A program made the translations under genes and the position numbers. A stretch of 64,000 nucleotides of DNA. It comes from Shewanella loihica PV-4. GTDB taxonomy: Bacteria > Pseudomonadota > Gammaproteobacteria > Enterobacterales > Shewanellaceae. Below are positions 6,255 through 24,560 of this stretch, in pieces. The notes under the pieces are model-generated. The model had not been told where the DNA came from. It ran no database searches and worked only from the letters and a program-made list of their open reading frames with translations. The stretch spans positions 4,154,001 through 4,218,000 of the forward strand of contig NC_009092.1 of assembly GCF_000016065.1 (NCBI RefSeq). The letters are read 5' to 3'. Position 1 is the first letter of the stretch. Every line of letters starts with the position of its first letter.

Positions 6255-8087
6255 CTAGCTGCGGGTGAGGTAGTCGTTGATCTCGTCAAGAAACTCGCCG
6301 CCGAAACGATTTAGCTTGGTCTCGCCCACGCCGTTCACCGCCAGCATCTCGCCGGGGCTGGTCGGCAACATGGCGGCCATCTCCGCCAATGTGGCGTCGT
6401 TAAACACCAGATAGGGCGGCACATCCAACTCTTCTGCCAGGCTGCGACGCAGCTGCTTCAGGCGGGCAAACAGTTTCCTGTCGTAGTTAATCGGTGCCCG
6501 GCTACTGCTGCGACGCTTCACATGTGTGGTGATGCTGATCCGCGGCTCGGCGAGCTGCAACGGCAGCTCCCCCTTAAGCACTGCCCGCGCCTGAGGATTA
6601 AGCTTAATGGCCGAACCTCTGGTGATATCCTGACTGGCGAAACCCAGGTGAATGATCTGACGTATGATACTGAGCCAGAACTCATGGCTCTTCTCCTTGC
6701 CTATACCCCAGGTCGACAGCTTGTCGTGGCCACGGTCGACCACAGAGGCCGCCTTGGAGCCGCGCAGCACCTCGATAAGATGATTTACACCAAACTTCTG
6801 CTGCAGGCGGAAGATGCAGGAGAGCACCTTCTGGGCATCCTCGACGCCGTCGTACCGCTTGGGTGGGTCTAAGCAGATATCACAGTTTCCGCAAGGCTCG
6901 GACGCACTCTCGTCGAAGTAATGCAGCAGCACCTGACGGCGACAGGTTTGCGCCTCGGCAAAGGCCGCCATGGTATTGAGCTTGTGGTACTCCACCTGCT
7001 GCTGCGGACCCGGCTCCTGCTGCTCGATGAGATGGCGCACCCGTCCGATATCGGCGGGATCGAACAGCATAAAGGCCTCGGCATCCAGGCCATCACGGCC
7101 GGCGCGGCCCGTCTCCTGGTAATAGGCCTCGACGCTCTTGGGAATATCGTAATGCACCACGAAGCGCACGTTGGACTTGTTGATCCCCATGCCAAAAGCC
7201 ACGGTGGCTACCACGATATCTAATTGATCTTTTAGGAAACGTTCCTGAATATCGGCGCGCTCCTCCTGGGTTTTGCCCGCGTGATAAGCATCGGCATGAT
7301 AGCCCTGCATACGCAGACGCTCGGCCACCTCATCCACCCGACGACGACTGCTACAGTAGATGATGCCACTGTTGCCATTCTGCGCCTGGATAAACTGCCT
7401 GAGCTGATTGGCGGCGTTGAGCTTCTCCGCCACGGTATAACGAATGTTGGGGCGATCGAAGCTGGTGAGCAGCTCAAAGGGCGCTATACCCAGTCGCTGG
7501 CAGATATCCTCGCGCGTCGCCTTGTCGGCAGTAGCCGTTAGCGCCATCATGGGCACCCGAGGAAACAGCTGCTTCAGCTGACCAAGGGCCGCATATTCGG
7601 GGCGGAAGTCGTGCCCCCACTGGGAAATACAGTGAGCCTCGTCGATGGCAAACAGGGAGAGCGGCAGGTTATGCAGACGCTCGATGAAGCTGTCGGTCAG
7701 CAGGCGCTCGGGTGATACATACAAGAGCTTGAGTTCGCCGTTATGCAGCTGGCGATAGATGGTCAGCGCCTCTTCCCGCGACTGTGACGAGTTGAGGTAG
7801 GCCGCGGCCACGCCCATCTGTTTCAGGCTATCGACCTGATCTTTCATCAGGGAGATCAGCGGCGACACCACCAGGGTCAGCCCGTGTAAGACGAGTGCCG
7901 GCAGCTGATAACACAGGCTCTTACCGCCGCCGGTAGGCATTATAACCAGAGCATCCTGGCCGCCGCAGACCTGCTCTATCACCTCACGCTGACCCGTCCT
8001 GAAGGTGCGATAGCCAAACACCGTCTGCAGGCAGGCGGCGAGCGGATCGCTATCGGTCACGTCGGGAGAAGTTAAGGCTAAGTCCAT
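6255..8087 (-). CDS. recQ: ATP-dependent DNA helicase RecQ
   Basis: 3'-5' helicase of recombination repair and replication-fork processing. 610 residues, the bacterial RecQ norm. The helicase core has GQREVIEQ, Walker A MPTGGGKSLCYQLP (about residue 50), the IDEAHCISQWGHDFRPEY box (DEAH plus aromatic-rich loop) and motif VI QETGRAGRDG. A zinc-binding segment with cysteines in CRRQVLL...CGNCDIC follows, then winged-helix and a C-terminal HRDC domain (about residues 530-605). Divergent from yigI, as in the recQ-yigI-rarD neighbourhood of enterobacteria. Confidence 0.98.
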   Translation of the reverse strand: MDLALTSPDVTDSDPLAACLQTVFGYRTFRTGQREVIEQVCGGQDALVIMPTGGGKSLCYQLPALVLHGLTLVVSPLISLMKDQVDSLKQMGVAAAYLNSSQSREEALTIYRQLHNGELKLLYVSPERLLTDSFIERLHNLPLSLFAIDEAHCISQWGHDFRPEYAALGQLKQLFPRVPMMALTATADKATREDICQRLGIAPFELLTSFDRPNIRYTVAEKLNAANQLRQFIQAQNGNSGIIYCSSRRRVDEVAERLRMQGYHADAYHAGKTQEERADIQERFLKDQLDIVVATVAFGMGINKSNVRFVVHYDIPKSVEAYYQETGRAGRDGLDAEAFMLFDPADIGRVRHLIEQQEPGPQQQVEYHKLNTMAAFAEAQTCRRQVLLHYFDESASEPCGNCDICLDPPKRYDGVEDAQKVLSCIFRLQQKFGVNHLIEVLRGSKAASVVDRGHDKLSTWGIGKEKSHEFWLSIIRQIIHLGFASQDITRGSAIKLNPQARAVLKGELPLQLAEPRISITTHVKRRSSSRAPINYDRKLFARLKQLRRSLAEELDVPPYLVFNDATLAEMAAMLPTSPGEMLAVNGVGETKLNRFGGEFLDEINDYLTRS

Positions 8088-8325
8088 GGCGCTCGGTAAT
8101 CATTAATTTGGCCGCTTATTCTAATCAAGCCGGCTCGGCTTGTCTCATCTATCCGGGTATTAATTACCACCTCGCCCCCATCGATTGATGAAATTTTATC
8201 CGCAGGCTTGCCTCGCCCAGTGCATTAGCGATAGATTAAATGCTCTAACCATTAGGCTAACGAATGCCCAAACTTTACCCGCTTGTCCCCAGCAAGCAGC
8301 GTAGGACAAAACAAGGAGTGCCCCT

Positions 8326-8790
8326 ATGACGACGCCCATACAAGCGCAGACCCTGGCCAGTGTAGCCGATATCTTCGATACCAAGGTGCCCTTTCATAAC
8401 CTCTTGGGGATGGATATCAAGCGTTACGATCTGCAGGGCGTCGAGGTCGAGGTGAAGATGAAGAAAGACCTCATAGGCAACATTCATCAGCAGATCCTCC
8501 ACGGCGGCGTGACCGCTACCGTACTAGATGTGGTGGGCGGCCTGACGGCCTTCTCTGGCCTGGTAGCCAGCCGAGACGACTGGTGTTTAGAAGATCTGCA
8601 GCAGCGCCTAAAAACCTTAGGCACCATAGATCTGCGTATCGATTATCTCAGACCAGGGCGCGGCGAGATCTTTACCGGCACGGGCACAGTGATCAGGGCC
8701 GGTAACCGAGTCTCAGTCTGCCGCATGGAGCTGCACAACGAGAAGGGCTCGCATATAGCCTTCGGCACTGGCACTTACATGGTGGGCTAG
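8326..8790 (+). CDS. yigI: YigI-type hotdog acyl-CoA thioesterase
   Basis: 154-residue single hotdog domain of the PaaI/YigI group, which hydrolyses acyl-CoA thioesters in the cytosol. Visible features: GNIHQQILHGGVTATVLDVV (the HGG turn and the following acidic residue on the central helix) and IDLRIDYLRPGRGEIF, typical of the family. An AAGGAG ribosome site lies just before the ATG. Substrate cannot be read from sequence; chain preference and physiological role are open. Context next to recQ and rarD supports orthology with yigI. Confidence 0.85.
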   Translation: MTTPIQAQTLASVADIFDTKVPFHNLLGMDIKRYDLQGVEVEVKMKKDLIGNIHQQILHGGVTATVLDVVGGLTAFSGLVASRDDWCLEDLQQRLKTLGTIDLRIDYLRPGRGEIFTGTGTVIRAGNRVSVCRMELHNEKGSHIAFGTGTYMVG

Positions 8791-20409: not shown

Positions 20410-20590
20410 TGGCATTTCCTGTTTGAAATAGAGATAAGCAGATTTGGCTGCATATTATAGGGGCTTGCGCGCTTCGATGCCATGTTAATCATGACCCAAA
20501 GCGTAAAGGGAGGAGAGTTTGCTTTAACCCTGCATCTCATCAGACTATAATCCAAGGTCACTAAATCGATTTAAACTATTGGAATTACCC

Positions 20591-21454
20591 ATGATCCAAA
20601 GCATGACAGCCTATGCTCGCATCGAGCACAAAGCACAATGGGGCACCGCCTCCTGGGAGATCCGCTCGGTCAATCAACGTTACCTTGAAACCTACCTGCG
20701 ACTGCCAGAACAGCTGCGCAGCCTGGAGCCTGTCCTCAGAGACCGTCTGCGTAAACGTTTAAATCGCGGCAAGATTGAGGTCAACCTGCGCTACGATCTT
20801 GGCGAAGAAAAGAATAACGACCTGCAACTCAATCAGGCGCTGGCCAGCCAGATCATTCAGGCGGCCAACTGGGTCAAGCAGGAAGCCGGTCAAGGCGAGA
20901 TCAACATAGTCGACGTGCTGCGCTGGCCGGGCGTAATGTCAGGCAGCGAGCAGGACATGGATGCCATAGGCAAAGAGCTACTGTCCGCCTTCGACAGCGC
21001 GGTCGATCAGTTTATCGAGGCCCGTGGCCGCGAAGGCGACGCCATCAAGACCATGCTAGAGACGCGTCTAGAGGCCATCGAGGGCCAGGTCGCTATCGTT
21101 CGCCAGCACATGCCTACCGTGATGCAGTGGCAGCGCGACAAGCTCACCAACCGTTTAGCCGAGATCCAGGGCGAATTGGATCCCGCTCGTCTAGAGCAGG
21201 AGATGGTGCTACTGGCGCAGAAGATGGATGTCGCCGAAGAGATGGACAGACTCGACGCCCACGTCGCCGAGACCCGCCGCATCCTCAAGAAAGGCGGCGC
21301 CCAGGGCCGACGCTTAGACTTCATGATGCAGGAGTTTAACCGCGAGTCCAACACCCTGGCCTCCAAGTCCATCAGCTCAGAGGTCACCGCCGCCGCGGTC
21401 GAACTCAAAGTGCTTATCGAGCAGATGCGCGAGCAGATCCAGAACGTCGAGTAA
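20591..21454 (+). CDS. yicC: YicC-family endoribonuclease
   Basis: 287 residues from MIQSMTAYARIE, closely following E. coli YicC along its whole length (SVNQRYLETYLRLPEQ, VLRWPGVMSG, GRRLDFMMQEFNRE at the C-terminus). The family has been reported to be an endoribonuclease; the C-terminal acidic/His-poor motif block EFNRESNTLASKS is its most conserved part. Divergent from rph, as in enterobacteria. The ATG at 20591 aligns with homologues; the frame extends upstream without support. Confidence 0.95.
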   Translation: MIQSMTAYARIEHKAQWGTASWEIRSVNQRYLETYLRLPEQLRSLEPVLRDRLRKRLNRGKIEVNLRYDLGEEKNNDLQLNQALASQIIQAANWVKQEAGQGEINIVDVLRWPGVMSGSEQDMDAIGKELLSAFDSAVDQFIEARGREGDAIKTMLETRLEAIEGQVAIVRQHMPTVMQWQRDKLTNRLAEIQGELDPARLEQEMVLLAQKMDVAEEMDRLDAHVAETRRILKKGGAQGRRLDFMMQEFNRESNTLASKSISSEVTAAAVELKVLIEQMREQIQNVE

Positions 21455-21468
21455 ACTCAATAAAATGC

Positions 21469-21502
21469 AAGCTCTAGCTTTATTCCAAGCTAGAGCTTTT
21501 CT
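21469..21502 (+). terminator. yicC terminator
   Basis: Perfect 12-bp stem AAGCTCTAGCTT / AAGCTAGAGCTT with a six-base loop and T-rich tail, 15 bp after the yicC stop. It marks the left border of the AT-rich island. Confidence 0.85.
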
Positions 21503-21554
21503 CCATTCCCTCCGAAATAAATCGTGTCACTTCCTCGATACGACCTCCCCAATT

Positions 21555-21587
21555 TGTGACTTATAGTCCGTAGACTGATAAGTCACA
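21555..21587. promoter_or_regulatory. double C-box (controller-protein operator)
   Basis: Two GACT...AGTC palindromes, GACTTATAGTC (21558-21568) and GACTGATAAGTC (21573-21584), are separated by CGTA. The whole also forms an overall dyad with perfect outer arms TGTGACTTAT / ATAAGTCACA. This is the published arrangement of C-boxes bound by controller (C) proteins of type II restriction-modification systems (GACT-N3-AGTC, 4-bp gap, repeated), with the right box one base longer. It is 47 bp upstream of the XRE gene, which presumably autoregulates here. Confidence 0.8.
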
Positions 21588-21633
21588 CCGATTCAAGATG
21601 CAAATCATATCCCACTGATATTTAGACATAATC

Positions 21634-21864
21634 ATGAATGTGATTTTGAGCCGTTTCGGACAAAGACTAAAACAAATACGAACTCAACAAAGATTAAGCC
21701 AAGAACAGCTAGCTGAAATCTGCGAACTAGATCGAACATATATCAGTGGTATAGAACGTGGCGTTCGTAATGTTGCACTAATTAATATCGTAAAATTAGC
21801 CAATGGTTTAAAGGTAAGCGCCTCATCTCTACTTGAATTTGATGTTGAGACCAAACATGACTAG
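21634..21864 (+). CDS. controller-type XRE/HTH transcriptional regulator
   Basis: 76-residue single-domain Cro/C1-type helix-turn-helix protein. FGQRLKQIRTQQRLSQEQL, LDRTYISGIERGVRNVAL and LLEFD follow the pattern of restriction-modification C proteins, small dimers that bind C-boxes and time expression of a toxic downstream gene. There is no good ribosome site before the ATG (ATAATCATG), so the mRNA may be leaderless, as reported for several C genes. It overlaps the next gene by 8 bp (ATGACTAG), so the two are translationally coupled. The frame is AT-rich compared with neighbours, a sign of transfer. Confidence 0.85.
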   Translation: MNVILSRFGQRLKQIRTQQRLSQEQLAEICELDRTYISGIERGVRNVALINIVKLANGLKVSASSLLEFDVETKHD

Positions 21865-23812
21865 GCGTGCTTTTTATTCAGCTCCACTTAATGAGTTTCT
21901 ATTAGAAAATCCCCAAGCTATTTTAGGCAAAATATCGCAACTCCATACCCAAGATATTAAGCATCACCAAACCTCCGCATGGACAGTGCAAATTGCTGCA
22001 ATTCAAACTGCTTTGGTCAACATCCCATCTGATAAAGGCTGGGTATTCTTTGAGTTTCTTATCCCTCGAATGGGTCGTCGTGCAGATGTAGTCCTCATTT
22101 ATTCTGGCATTATATTTGTGCTGGAATTTAAAATTGGTGCATCTAATTATCTATCCCAAGATCTCCGCCAAACTCATGGCTATGCATTAGATTTAAAAAA
22201 CTTTCACAGAGGAAGTCATGGTAAATGTATTGTTCCTATTCTAGTAGCGACCGCGACAGAAAACTCATTTAGCGACATCTGCTTCGCGGCAGATTATGTT
22301 GCTTCGCCAATATGCATTAATATTGCTCAACTACATCAAACCATCACCCAAATATCCATTCAGCACAAACAACCTGATTTTAGGGGAGATGAATGGGCTA
22401 AGACGGGATATATGCCAACACCAACAATTGTCGAAGCCGCTCAAGCTTTATACGCATCTCACAATGTAGAAGACATTGCTCGAAATGAAGCCGACAATCA
22501 AAACTTAGGCAAAACTTGCAATGAATTAATCAAACTAATTCACCAGTCTCGAACACAAAAATCAAAAGCTATCTGCTTTGTAACCGGAGTTCCAGGCGCG
22601 GGGAAAACATTGATAGGTGTTAATCTTGCCAACGCTCATTCCATTCCCGAAGAAGATGAGTATTCGGTATTCTTAAGCGGTAATGGTCCTCTAGTGACTG
22701 TATTACAAGAAGCATTGGCTAATGATGCTTCCAAGCGAACAAACTCTACAAAAGCTAGAGAACGGCAGAAAACCAGTCAGTTTATTCAAAATATTCATCG
22801 TTTTAGAGATGAGGCTCTGGATGGCTCAATACCGCCAGAAAAAGTAGTAATCTTTGATGAAGCACAACGAGCATGGAATCTAGAGCAAACCTCCAAATTC
22901 ATGCAAACTAAACGCGGTTATCTCAACTTCAATCAATCAGAACCTGAATTTCTCATATCGGTCATGGATAGACATCAAGATTGGGCTGTGATTATTGCGC
23001 TTATTGGAGGTGGACAAGAGATAAACACTGGTGAGGCTGGGTTGAGAGGCTGGTTAGACGCTCTTGAAAACCGCTTCGCTAACTGGAATGTATACTGCTC
23101 ACCGAACATACTTACTAGTAATTATATCTCTACAGATGTTTCGCCTGATCATTTAGAAAACGTGAACATCTTACCAAACCTGCACTTAGCAACTTCAATG
23201 CGATCTTTCAGAGCTGAGAAACTATCTGACTTCGTACACCATGTTATCGCTGGTGATGGAAAAAAAGCTAAGGAATTAAGCGACCAATTACAGCAGGTAT
23301 ACCCACTAAAAATCACCCGAGATTTAAATAAAGCCAAAAAATGGCTACGAACTCAAACTCGAGCAAATGAAAGCAAAGGGCTTCTCGCCTCCTCCAATGC
23401 TATTCGTCTAAAAGCTGAAGGAATACATGTTAAAAATCGCTTTGACCCAGCAGCATGGTATTTAAATCCTCAAGAGGATATCCGCTCATGCCATTTTCTC
23501 GAGGATTGCGCGACAGAGTTTGATATCCAAGGCCTAGAACTAGATTGGTGCCTAGTAGGTTGGGATGCCGATTACCGTCATAACGGTGATAAGTTTGAAC
23601 ATTGGAAATTTAAAGGAACAAAATGGCAAAATCGCAACAAAGATGAGGACAAACGCTACCTTGAAAATGCTTATCGAGTTCTGTTAACTAGAGCAAGACA
23701 AGGAATGGTGATATTTATTCCAGAAGGAACCGATATTGATTCAACAAGAAAAAAATCACTCTACTTACATACGTATCAATATCTGCTGGATTGTGGCTTT
23801 AAAATGATTTAG
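21857..23812 (+). CDS. PD-(D/E)XK nuclease fused to DUF2075/SF1-like helicase
   Basis: 651 residues from the coupled ATG at 21857. The N-terminus looks like a PD-(D/E)XK nuclease: Glu66, Asp77 (RRADVVL), Glu90-x-Lys92 (FVLEFKIG) and a trailing QxxxY (Gln105/Tyr109). The rest is a DUF2075-type P-loop NTPase: Walker A GVPGAGKT (244-251), Walker B VVIFDEAQRAW (330-340), a glutamine-bearing motif III ALIGGGQEI (381-389), motif V-like QGLELDW (558-564) and motif VI-like YRVLLTRARQG (606-616). All key residues of both parts are present. Codon and base use is strikingly AT-rich against GC-rich neighbours. Paired with a C-protein-like regulator and no methylase, it is a candidate anti-phage or other DNA/RNA-targeting system; substrate unknown. 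Confidence 0.85.
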   Translation: MTRRAFYSAPLNEFLLENPQAILGKISQLHTQDIKHHQTSAWTVQIAAIQTALVNIPSDKGWVFFEFLIPRMGRRADVVLIYSGIIFVLEFKIGASNYLSQDLRQTHGYALDLKNFHRGSHGKCIVPILVATATENSFSDICFAADYVASPICINIAQLHQTITQISIQHKQPDFRGDEWAKTGYMPTPTIVEAAQALYASHNVEDIARNEADNQNLGKTCNELIKLIHQSRTQKSKAICFVTGVPGAGKTLIGVNLANAHSIPEEDEYSVFLSGNGPLVTVLQEALANDASKRTNSTKARERQKTSQFIQNIHRFRDEALDGSIPPEKVVIFDEAQRAWNLEQTSKFMQTKRGYLNFNQSEPEFLISVMDRHQDWAVIIALIGGGQEINTGEAGLRGWLDALENRFANWNVYCSPNILTSNYISTDVSPDHLENVNILPNLHLATSMRSFRAEKLSDFVHHVIAGDGKKAKELSDQLQQVYPLKITRDLNKAKKWLRTQTRANESKGLLASSNAIRLKAEGIHVKNRFDPAAWYLNPQEDIRSCHFLEDCATEFDIQGLELDWCLVGWDADYRHNGDKFEHWKFKGTKWQNRNKDEDKRYLENAYRVLLTRARQGMVIFIPEGTDIDSTRKKSLYLHTYQYLLDCGFKMI

Positions 23813-23948
23813 CCGCAATCTCACCATTCCCTTAATTGCTTCATCACGTTTAGCCTTTCGCTTTACACAACTCAGGCTCTAAAAAAGCGCATCGATTATG
23901 AACTTAGTCCCTATTAGGCACAATTTTTCTAGCAAAAATGGAGACCCC

Positions 23949-24560
23949 ATGTCACAACGGAGTAAATGGCCTCAATTACTAGTGATTCTTATCGCTCTGG
24001 CCCTGCTTATCCCTGGACTCAGCCTACCTATGCTGAGCCTTGATGGCCAGGCGGACAAATCTAAATTTGCCCAGACAAGCATAGAACTGATGACAGAAGA
24101 CGGTGAGATGCGCGGACTGCTGGGGTCTGTATCCGCCTTTCTCGGCTTTAACGAGCTTGAGGGTCAGGTGGAGATATATCGCAAGCACCGCAGCATACTG
24201 GGGACGGTGCAAGATCTAATGCAAAGCGGTAACCTGCTGGTCGGCATCATGATAGCCACTTTCTCGGTGATCATTCCCACCCTTAAGCTATTGGCGCAGG
24301 CGGTACTGGTTTTCGCACGTGGCAGCACGGCTACCCTGCTCACACGCCTTATCGATGCCATCGGCAAGTGGAGCATGGCCGATGTATTTGTGGTGGCCAT
24401 CATTGTCAGCTACCTCGCAGGTAACGCCGAGGATCAGATGGGTGAGCTAATCATAATGCACGCCCAGCTCGAAATCGGCTTCTGGTTTTTCACTGGTTAC
24501 TGCCTGTTTGCCATCGCTTCCAACATCATGATGAGCAAACCTAAAACCACCTCGGCCTAA
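23949..24560 (+). CDS. PqiA-like (paraquat-inducible protein A family) membrane protein
   Basis: 203 residues, about four transmembrane helices (LLVILIALALLIPGLSLPM at the N-terminus, then LLVGIMIATFSVIIPTLKLL, VFVVAIIVSYLAG and a C-terminal helix). The P-x-L and SMADVFVVAIIVSY pattern is that of a PqiA domain; only one domain copy is present, half of PqiA. No PqiB/MCE partner is nearby, so a lipid-transport role is not established. Start 23949 is favoured by GGAGA five bases upstream; a further in-frame ATG (23898) lacks that support. Sits right of the AT-rich island, back to normal composition. Confidence 0.8.
   Translation: MSQRSKWPQLLVILIALALLIPGLSLPMLSLDGQADKSKFAQTSIELMTEDGEMRGLLGSVSAFLGFNELEGQVEIYRKHRSILGTVQDLMQSGNLLVGIMIATFSVIIPTLKLLAQAVLVFARGSTATLLTRLIDAIGKWSMADVFVVAIIVSYLAGNAEDQMGELIIMHAQLEIGFWFFTGYCLFAIASNIMMSKPKTTSA

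Follow-up and report, generated by a model that had tools for sequence, protein, structure and literature searches.

A putative C-type switch with no methyltransferase found nearby precedes a candidate nuclease–helicase defence gene in Shewanella loihica PV-4

The usual rationale for controller (C) proteins is that the methylase of a restriction–modification (R-M) system must act ahead of the restriction enzyme. As outlined in a review of C-controlled systems, low levels of C activate and high levels repress, and establishment of a system fails where C is already present, with poor transformation of C-holding cells reported for PvuII. The same account ties one member of the C family to a Type I locus in Mycoplasma gallisepticum, and by that account C control outside Type II R-M is not wholly new. 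The described systems closest to the locus reported here are C-controlled Type II R-M operons (C.Esp1396I and C.AhdI, and those of pSBAL17501 and pdp3), with which it shares the C family, a double C-box, and a C gene placed directly before or overlapping the nuclease gene. The locus occupies positions 21555–23812 of the window, a 64-kb stretch of the Shewanella loihica PV-4 genome that was analysed as a whole. It differs from these operons in that no methyltransferase was found, and its second gene encodes not a Type II enzyme but a 651-residue nuclease–helicase of the PADLOC family PDC-S41, the effector. We read the locus, with a probability of about 0.6, as a mobile, two-gene, stand-alone defence cassette under a C-type switch, and the best reading of its origin is that a mobile defence gene took over an R-M control module.

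The first gene of the pair (21634–21864; all features described here lie on the forward strand) encodes a 76-residue protein with an XRE-type helix-turn-helix, identified by both model and structure matches. Its best model is PADLOC Control_protein (E = 6.1e-25). The nearest solved structures are C.AhdI (1.3e-16) and C.BclI (9.4e-16), followed by a set of entries titled R-M controller protein, which we take to be C.Esp1396I. These matches and the C-box upstream bear out the first-pass annotation, made from the sequence alone, which had seen in this small XRE protein a controller of the R-M type. Judged by its sequence, the protein is a C-type regulator at a C-box, with operator binding predicted. 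In C.Esp1396I, T36 and R46 are described as touching bases (PMC4041747); the aligned residues of the window protein, T35 and R45, are invariant in 10 aligned C-like proteins.

The double C-box operator (21555–21586) lies 5' of the C gene. It consists of a left site, GACTTATAGTC (21558–21568), and a right site, GACTGATAAGTC (21573–21584), with the 4 bp CGTA between them, and the outer flanks GTGACT...AGTCAC (21556–21586) enclose both sites. The earlier description of a perfect double C-box holds for the arms, since all four (GACT/AGTC) are perfect, but not for the spacers, which measure 3 and 4 bp. A single C-box motif alone carries little weight because copies of GACTNNNAGTC with at most one mismatch number 12 in the window against 18.6 expected, the exact motif occurring once. 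The longer core, GTGACTNATAGTCCGTNGAC, has one copy in the genome (a single contig of 4,602,594 bp) against 3e-5 expected in 4.6 Mb under an order-1 Markov model trained on the window. Across 11 aligned upstream regions of relatives, GTGACT, an A, AGTCCGT, a G, an A, and the right-hand ACA are invariant, while the mean column identity of the same regions is 36%; the flanks thus diverge while the operator stays invariant. Within the 11 operators the left site is fixed and the right site is variable, as would be predicted if the former activates and the latter represses. As described in PMC3758141, GAC/GTC contacts are made around a TATA spacer with TG contacts outside them, and the right site forms part of the –35 box. 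The left site of the window, TGTGACTTATAGTC, agrees with this contact pattern.

The effector gene (21857–23812) overlaps the C gene by 8 bp, and the open reading frames confirm both this overlap and the length of 651 residues given in the first-pass annotation. The PADLOC PDC-S41 model covers the effector end to end (residues 3–650 against model positions 2–652 of 657, E = 1e-276). The N-terminal domain (approximately residues 36–170, 21962–22366) has the core fold with D...E-x-K by which PD-(D/E)XK enzymes are recognized, and D77, E90, K92, and Q105 are invariant. A superfamily 1 helicase domain (residues 237–622, 22565–23722; Pfam SLFN-g3_helicase) follows, with its Walker A motif at 22586–22609. 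The two folds, the invariant catalytic residues, and a match to Pfam PF09848 (formerly DUF2075; 1.6e-82) sustain the proposed architecture of a PD-(D/E)XK nuclease joined to a DUF2075 helicase, and the protein is predicted to possess both activities. Its nearest homologue is found in Shewanella marisflavi (94% identity). PDC-S41 is an already-named phage-defence candidate, and the anti-phage role of the family is a predicted one; the PDC names reportedly originate in the Payne et al. 2024 preprint. PADLOC treats PDC-S41 as a single-gene candidate, whereas the full-length match described here belongs to a two-gene unit with C, and C is absent from most distant members. Schlafen group 3 helicases (SLFN11, SLFN14) differ from the effector, which has a PD-(D/E)XK domain in place of the Schlafen RNase core; no such core (AlbA_2-type) was among the 12 Pfam families matching the effector up to E = 0.1. 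Gabija and Nhi defence systems resemble the effector in combining a motor and a nuclease without a methylase, but the sequence matches to them are marginal only (Nhi 1.1e-4, GajB 0.0087).

The first-pass annotation had suggested looking for the same pair, with C-boxes upstream, in other genomes, and the pair does recur in further marine bacteria. Close relatives were defined as effectors of at least 55% identity, and the sample comprises 17 distinct genomes. Nine of 97 Shewanella genomes carry the effector; an order sample of 394 genomes adds Shewanella G616 as well as G470 and G516. Photobacterium sanctipauli, Veronia nyctiphanis, HTCC5015, and a gammaproteobacterial metagenome-assembled genome came from the best 80 of 582 confirmed loci, among which two of the Shewanella recurred; HTCC5015 turned up again in a class sample of 369 genomes. 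The 17th carrier, G992, shows 55% identity over the part first seen. In all 17 genomes a C gene lies directly upstream of the effector gene, together with a C-box (at most 2 mismatches). The effector is intact in 15 of them and broken in P. sanctipauli (stop after 239 codons) and G616 (split over two frames); the C frame of HTCC5015 stops after 54 codons. In a tree of 107 effector sequences, from which the two broken effectors and G992 were left out, the C-linked members form one clade of 14 (Shimodaira–Hasegawa-like approximate likelihood ratio test [SH-aLRT] 96) plus a lone case, L040, where a small frame sits between the C gene and the effector gene. Among the remaining 92 rows, L053 has an upstream XRE gene without a C-box. 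The tree of 20 short C proteins has 1 of 17 branches well supported; in it the PDC-linked C proteins group together (3 changes; none of 500 shuffles gave so few).

A Type II R-M system is recognized by a linked DNA methyltransferase, and none was found for the window cassette, for 16 further cassettes (15 of the 17 close relatives plus L040), or for G616. Consistent with the absence of a nearby methylase reported in the first-pass annotation, 0 of 107 open reading frames (at least 100 residues) in the window match any of seven query proteins or the amino-methyltransferase motif. A methyltransferase linked to the pair in relatives would have spoken against that annotation; the seven methyltransferase queries and motifs detected none among 141 neighbour open reading frames (at least 120 residues, within 5.5 kb) of the 16 cassettes, nor in the surroundings of the G616 cassette, these searches being blind to enzymes that are unlike the seven queries and lack the motifs. 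A PADLOC scan of 78 of the 141 neighbour proteins, run without controls, gave no methyltransferase among the matches listed (25 of 99 families). A larger PADLOC neighbour scan (25 of 454 families listed) included three methyltransferase controls, and its methyltransferase rows are not all traceable. At distant PDC-S41 loci, a methyltransferase match was obtained at 2 of 73. Ten neighbouring genes in the window were scanned; the Pfam domains of 9 are of metabolic, regulatory, or housekeeping types, and the tenth has no Pfam domain.

Among 94 Shewanella genomes, 11 contain the exact core (0 contain the reversed control), namely all 9 effector carriers, G044, and G068, where the C-box lies 121 bases short of a contig end. 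Outside effector cassettes, the exact core sits mostly before R-M operons with a methyltransferase. In a phylum sample of 398 genomes it was found in five: G000, G470, and G992 have it with C and PDC-S41, and G477 and G885 have it with C, a gene outside known Pfam families, and a C5 methylase. Four of five plasmids with the core carry a C-type gene and a methyltransferase gene at most two genes away; in the fifth, the regulator is in the opposite orientation and a dcm gene lies approximately 4.6 kb off. The window operator region is identical at 21 of 21 aligned bases to that of a BstXI-type R-M operon on the conjugative plasmid pSBAL17501 of Shewanella baltica, and a 14-residue recognition segment is identical between the two C proteins. 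Four viral stretches also contain the core. Three of them (L129, L131, L132) share one element of C and an HNH protein, and L130 has C without a recognized nuclease. Flanks were screened for a methylase in L129 alone among those three (L131 and L132 were left out); at 6939–8374 of this phage-type contig, a C-box, a C gene, and an HNH_2 protein are accompanied by a convergent C5 methylase. In G044 (L142, 3560–6862), the C-box precedes a 70-residue frame and lacks a C gene; EcoRII-type and C5-methylase genes lie next to it, and the region adjoins genes that also neighbour C–PDC-S41 cassettes in other Shewanella.

By composition, the C and effector genes are foreign, with GC contents of 37% and 40% in a window of 55.5%. 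The cassette follows yicC (20579–21454), whose 3' end is the insertion site and which lies outside the cassette; yicC is described as an island integration locus in Shewanella (PMC8978831). It was found within approximately 5 kb of the effector in 6 of the 17 relatives' stretches searched and not in the other 11. It points in the same direction as the effector gene in G516, is convergent with it in G992 and HTCC5015, and is more distant in G616, G082, and G006. Such varied orientations speak for repeated insertion rather than inheritance in place. No effector is present in the sister genome G013; its yicC and pqiA are 80% and 78% identical to those of the window, with approximately 22 kb between them. 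This stretch (L167, L168) begins with a phage-type integrase gene, encodes a DUF499 protein and a PLD-helicase protein, and closes with 14 bases, CAGATCCAGAACGT, that repeat the 3' end of the window's yicC; it has the look of a further defence island at this site. The yicC locus is an island site, at which the window cassette need not be a complete island.

C binding, activation and repression, timing, and phage resistance are inferred. As in C.Esp1396I, a C dimer on the strong left site would activate a weak promoter of the C gene and the overlapping effector gene, and at high C the promoter would be shut by a further dimer bound to the weaker right site. The effector would then be silent on entry of the cassette, rise late, and be kept at a low level buffered against copy number. 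It would act as a motor-driven PD-(D/E)XK nuclease attacking foreign DNA during infection. Without a methylase, protection of self would come from the substrate choice and dosage of the effector rather than from methylation. Delayed expression, which the first-pass annotation stressed, could be one of several roles of the C switch. Several observations weigh against the cassette as we read it. The C gene is missing from most distant PDC-S41 genes, and C is therefore not required for the basic function of the family, which is itself a predicted candidate only and whose name was not found in the literature searched. Conservation of the right site is small across the 11 aligned upstream regions. 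A scan of the operator gave no sigma-70-like promoter (0, where shuffles lead one to expect 1.0); this is compatible with a weak activated promoter but proves nothing. No attachment repeats flank the window cassette when 11-base words of 21401–21560 are compared with 21561–24000, the sole recurrence falling inside the effector gene.

CapH and BrxR act as repressor lids for other defence systems, and overlapping regulator and effector genes are common in such repressor/effector pairs. It is conceivable, though on balance unlikely, that the XRE protein is likewise a plain, antitoxin-like repressor that holds a toxic effector down until infection lifts it, with no activation and no delay. The 8-bp overlap would suit such a pair, the CapH model of PADLOC also matches the C protein (1.2e-10), and L010 and G616 keep an intact C with a broken effector, as a costly effector would lead one to expect. 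However, the C-protein models score better (6e-25), the operator has the two-site layout of a C-box with a fixed left and a variable right half, and plasmid copies of the core front R-M operons. A DNA-repair or housekeeping helicase–nuclease beside which the C gene is incidental seems improbable in view of the foreign GC content, the island site, and the patchy presence of the effector (9 of 97 genomes in the genus, 10 of 369 in a class sample, 8 of 394 in the order sample); homologues that are housekeeping and chromosomally fixed, which would have told against the first-pass annotation, are not what we found, as the effector is accessory in Shewanella. Still harder to maintain is the view of the cassette as an R-M remnant that has lost its methylase and whose restriction enzyme was PDC-S41. 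The operator and C protein are both of the R-M type, and G044 has a C-box beside R-M genes and genes known from cassette surroundings, but the methyltransferase searches and the largely intact effectors oppose it, since a single loss would not yield a clade of working copies. We rejected a decayed R-M system: the seven queries and motifs gave no methyltransferase near the cassettes, and PDC-S41 is generally not methylase-linked.

It is rather doubtful, but deserves mention, that the function of the cassette lies in a C-regulon shared with R-M elements, where either C protein switches on the effector of the other. When an R-M plasmid with the same box enters, the resident C would activate the plasmid's restriction enzyme prematurely, or else the plasmid C would activate the resident nuclease–helicase. 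The operator and recognition-segment identity with pSBAL17501 favours this view, and cross-complementation and mutual exclusion are reported among C-controlled R-M systems in the review. If so, PDC-S41 with C would exclude selfish R-M elements besides, or instead of, phages.

For the stand-alone defence cassette, a conserved C switch without a methylase would mean that the switch is useful beyond the need for a methylase to act first, possibly in avoiding killing on entry, buffering copy number, or excluding rival elements. The literature searched, which did not extend to Sorokin et al. 2009 on predicted C proteins, yielded no C switch on a methylase-free defence candidate; C proteins outside R-M may have been noted earlier. 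In a two-gene cassette the usual rationale for C proteins can be put to the test, and PDC-S41 gains a handle for assays. Near the G470 cassette lie a reverse transcriptase gene and a retron/Septu-type ATPase gene. Beyond the close relatives, the members of a six-member Prolixibacteraceae clade of PDC-S41 (SH-aLRT 99) are flanked on one side by either a C-like gene or a C-box-like site. At four of its loci (L043 4638, L067 4638, L060 6986, L072 6495), where no C gene was found, a C-box-like site, one per genome, precedes a small protein of an unnamed family beside PDC-S41; at the other two, a C-like gene lies downstream.
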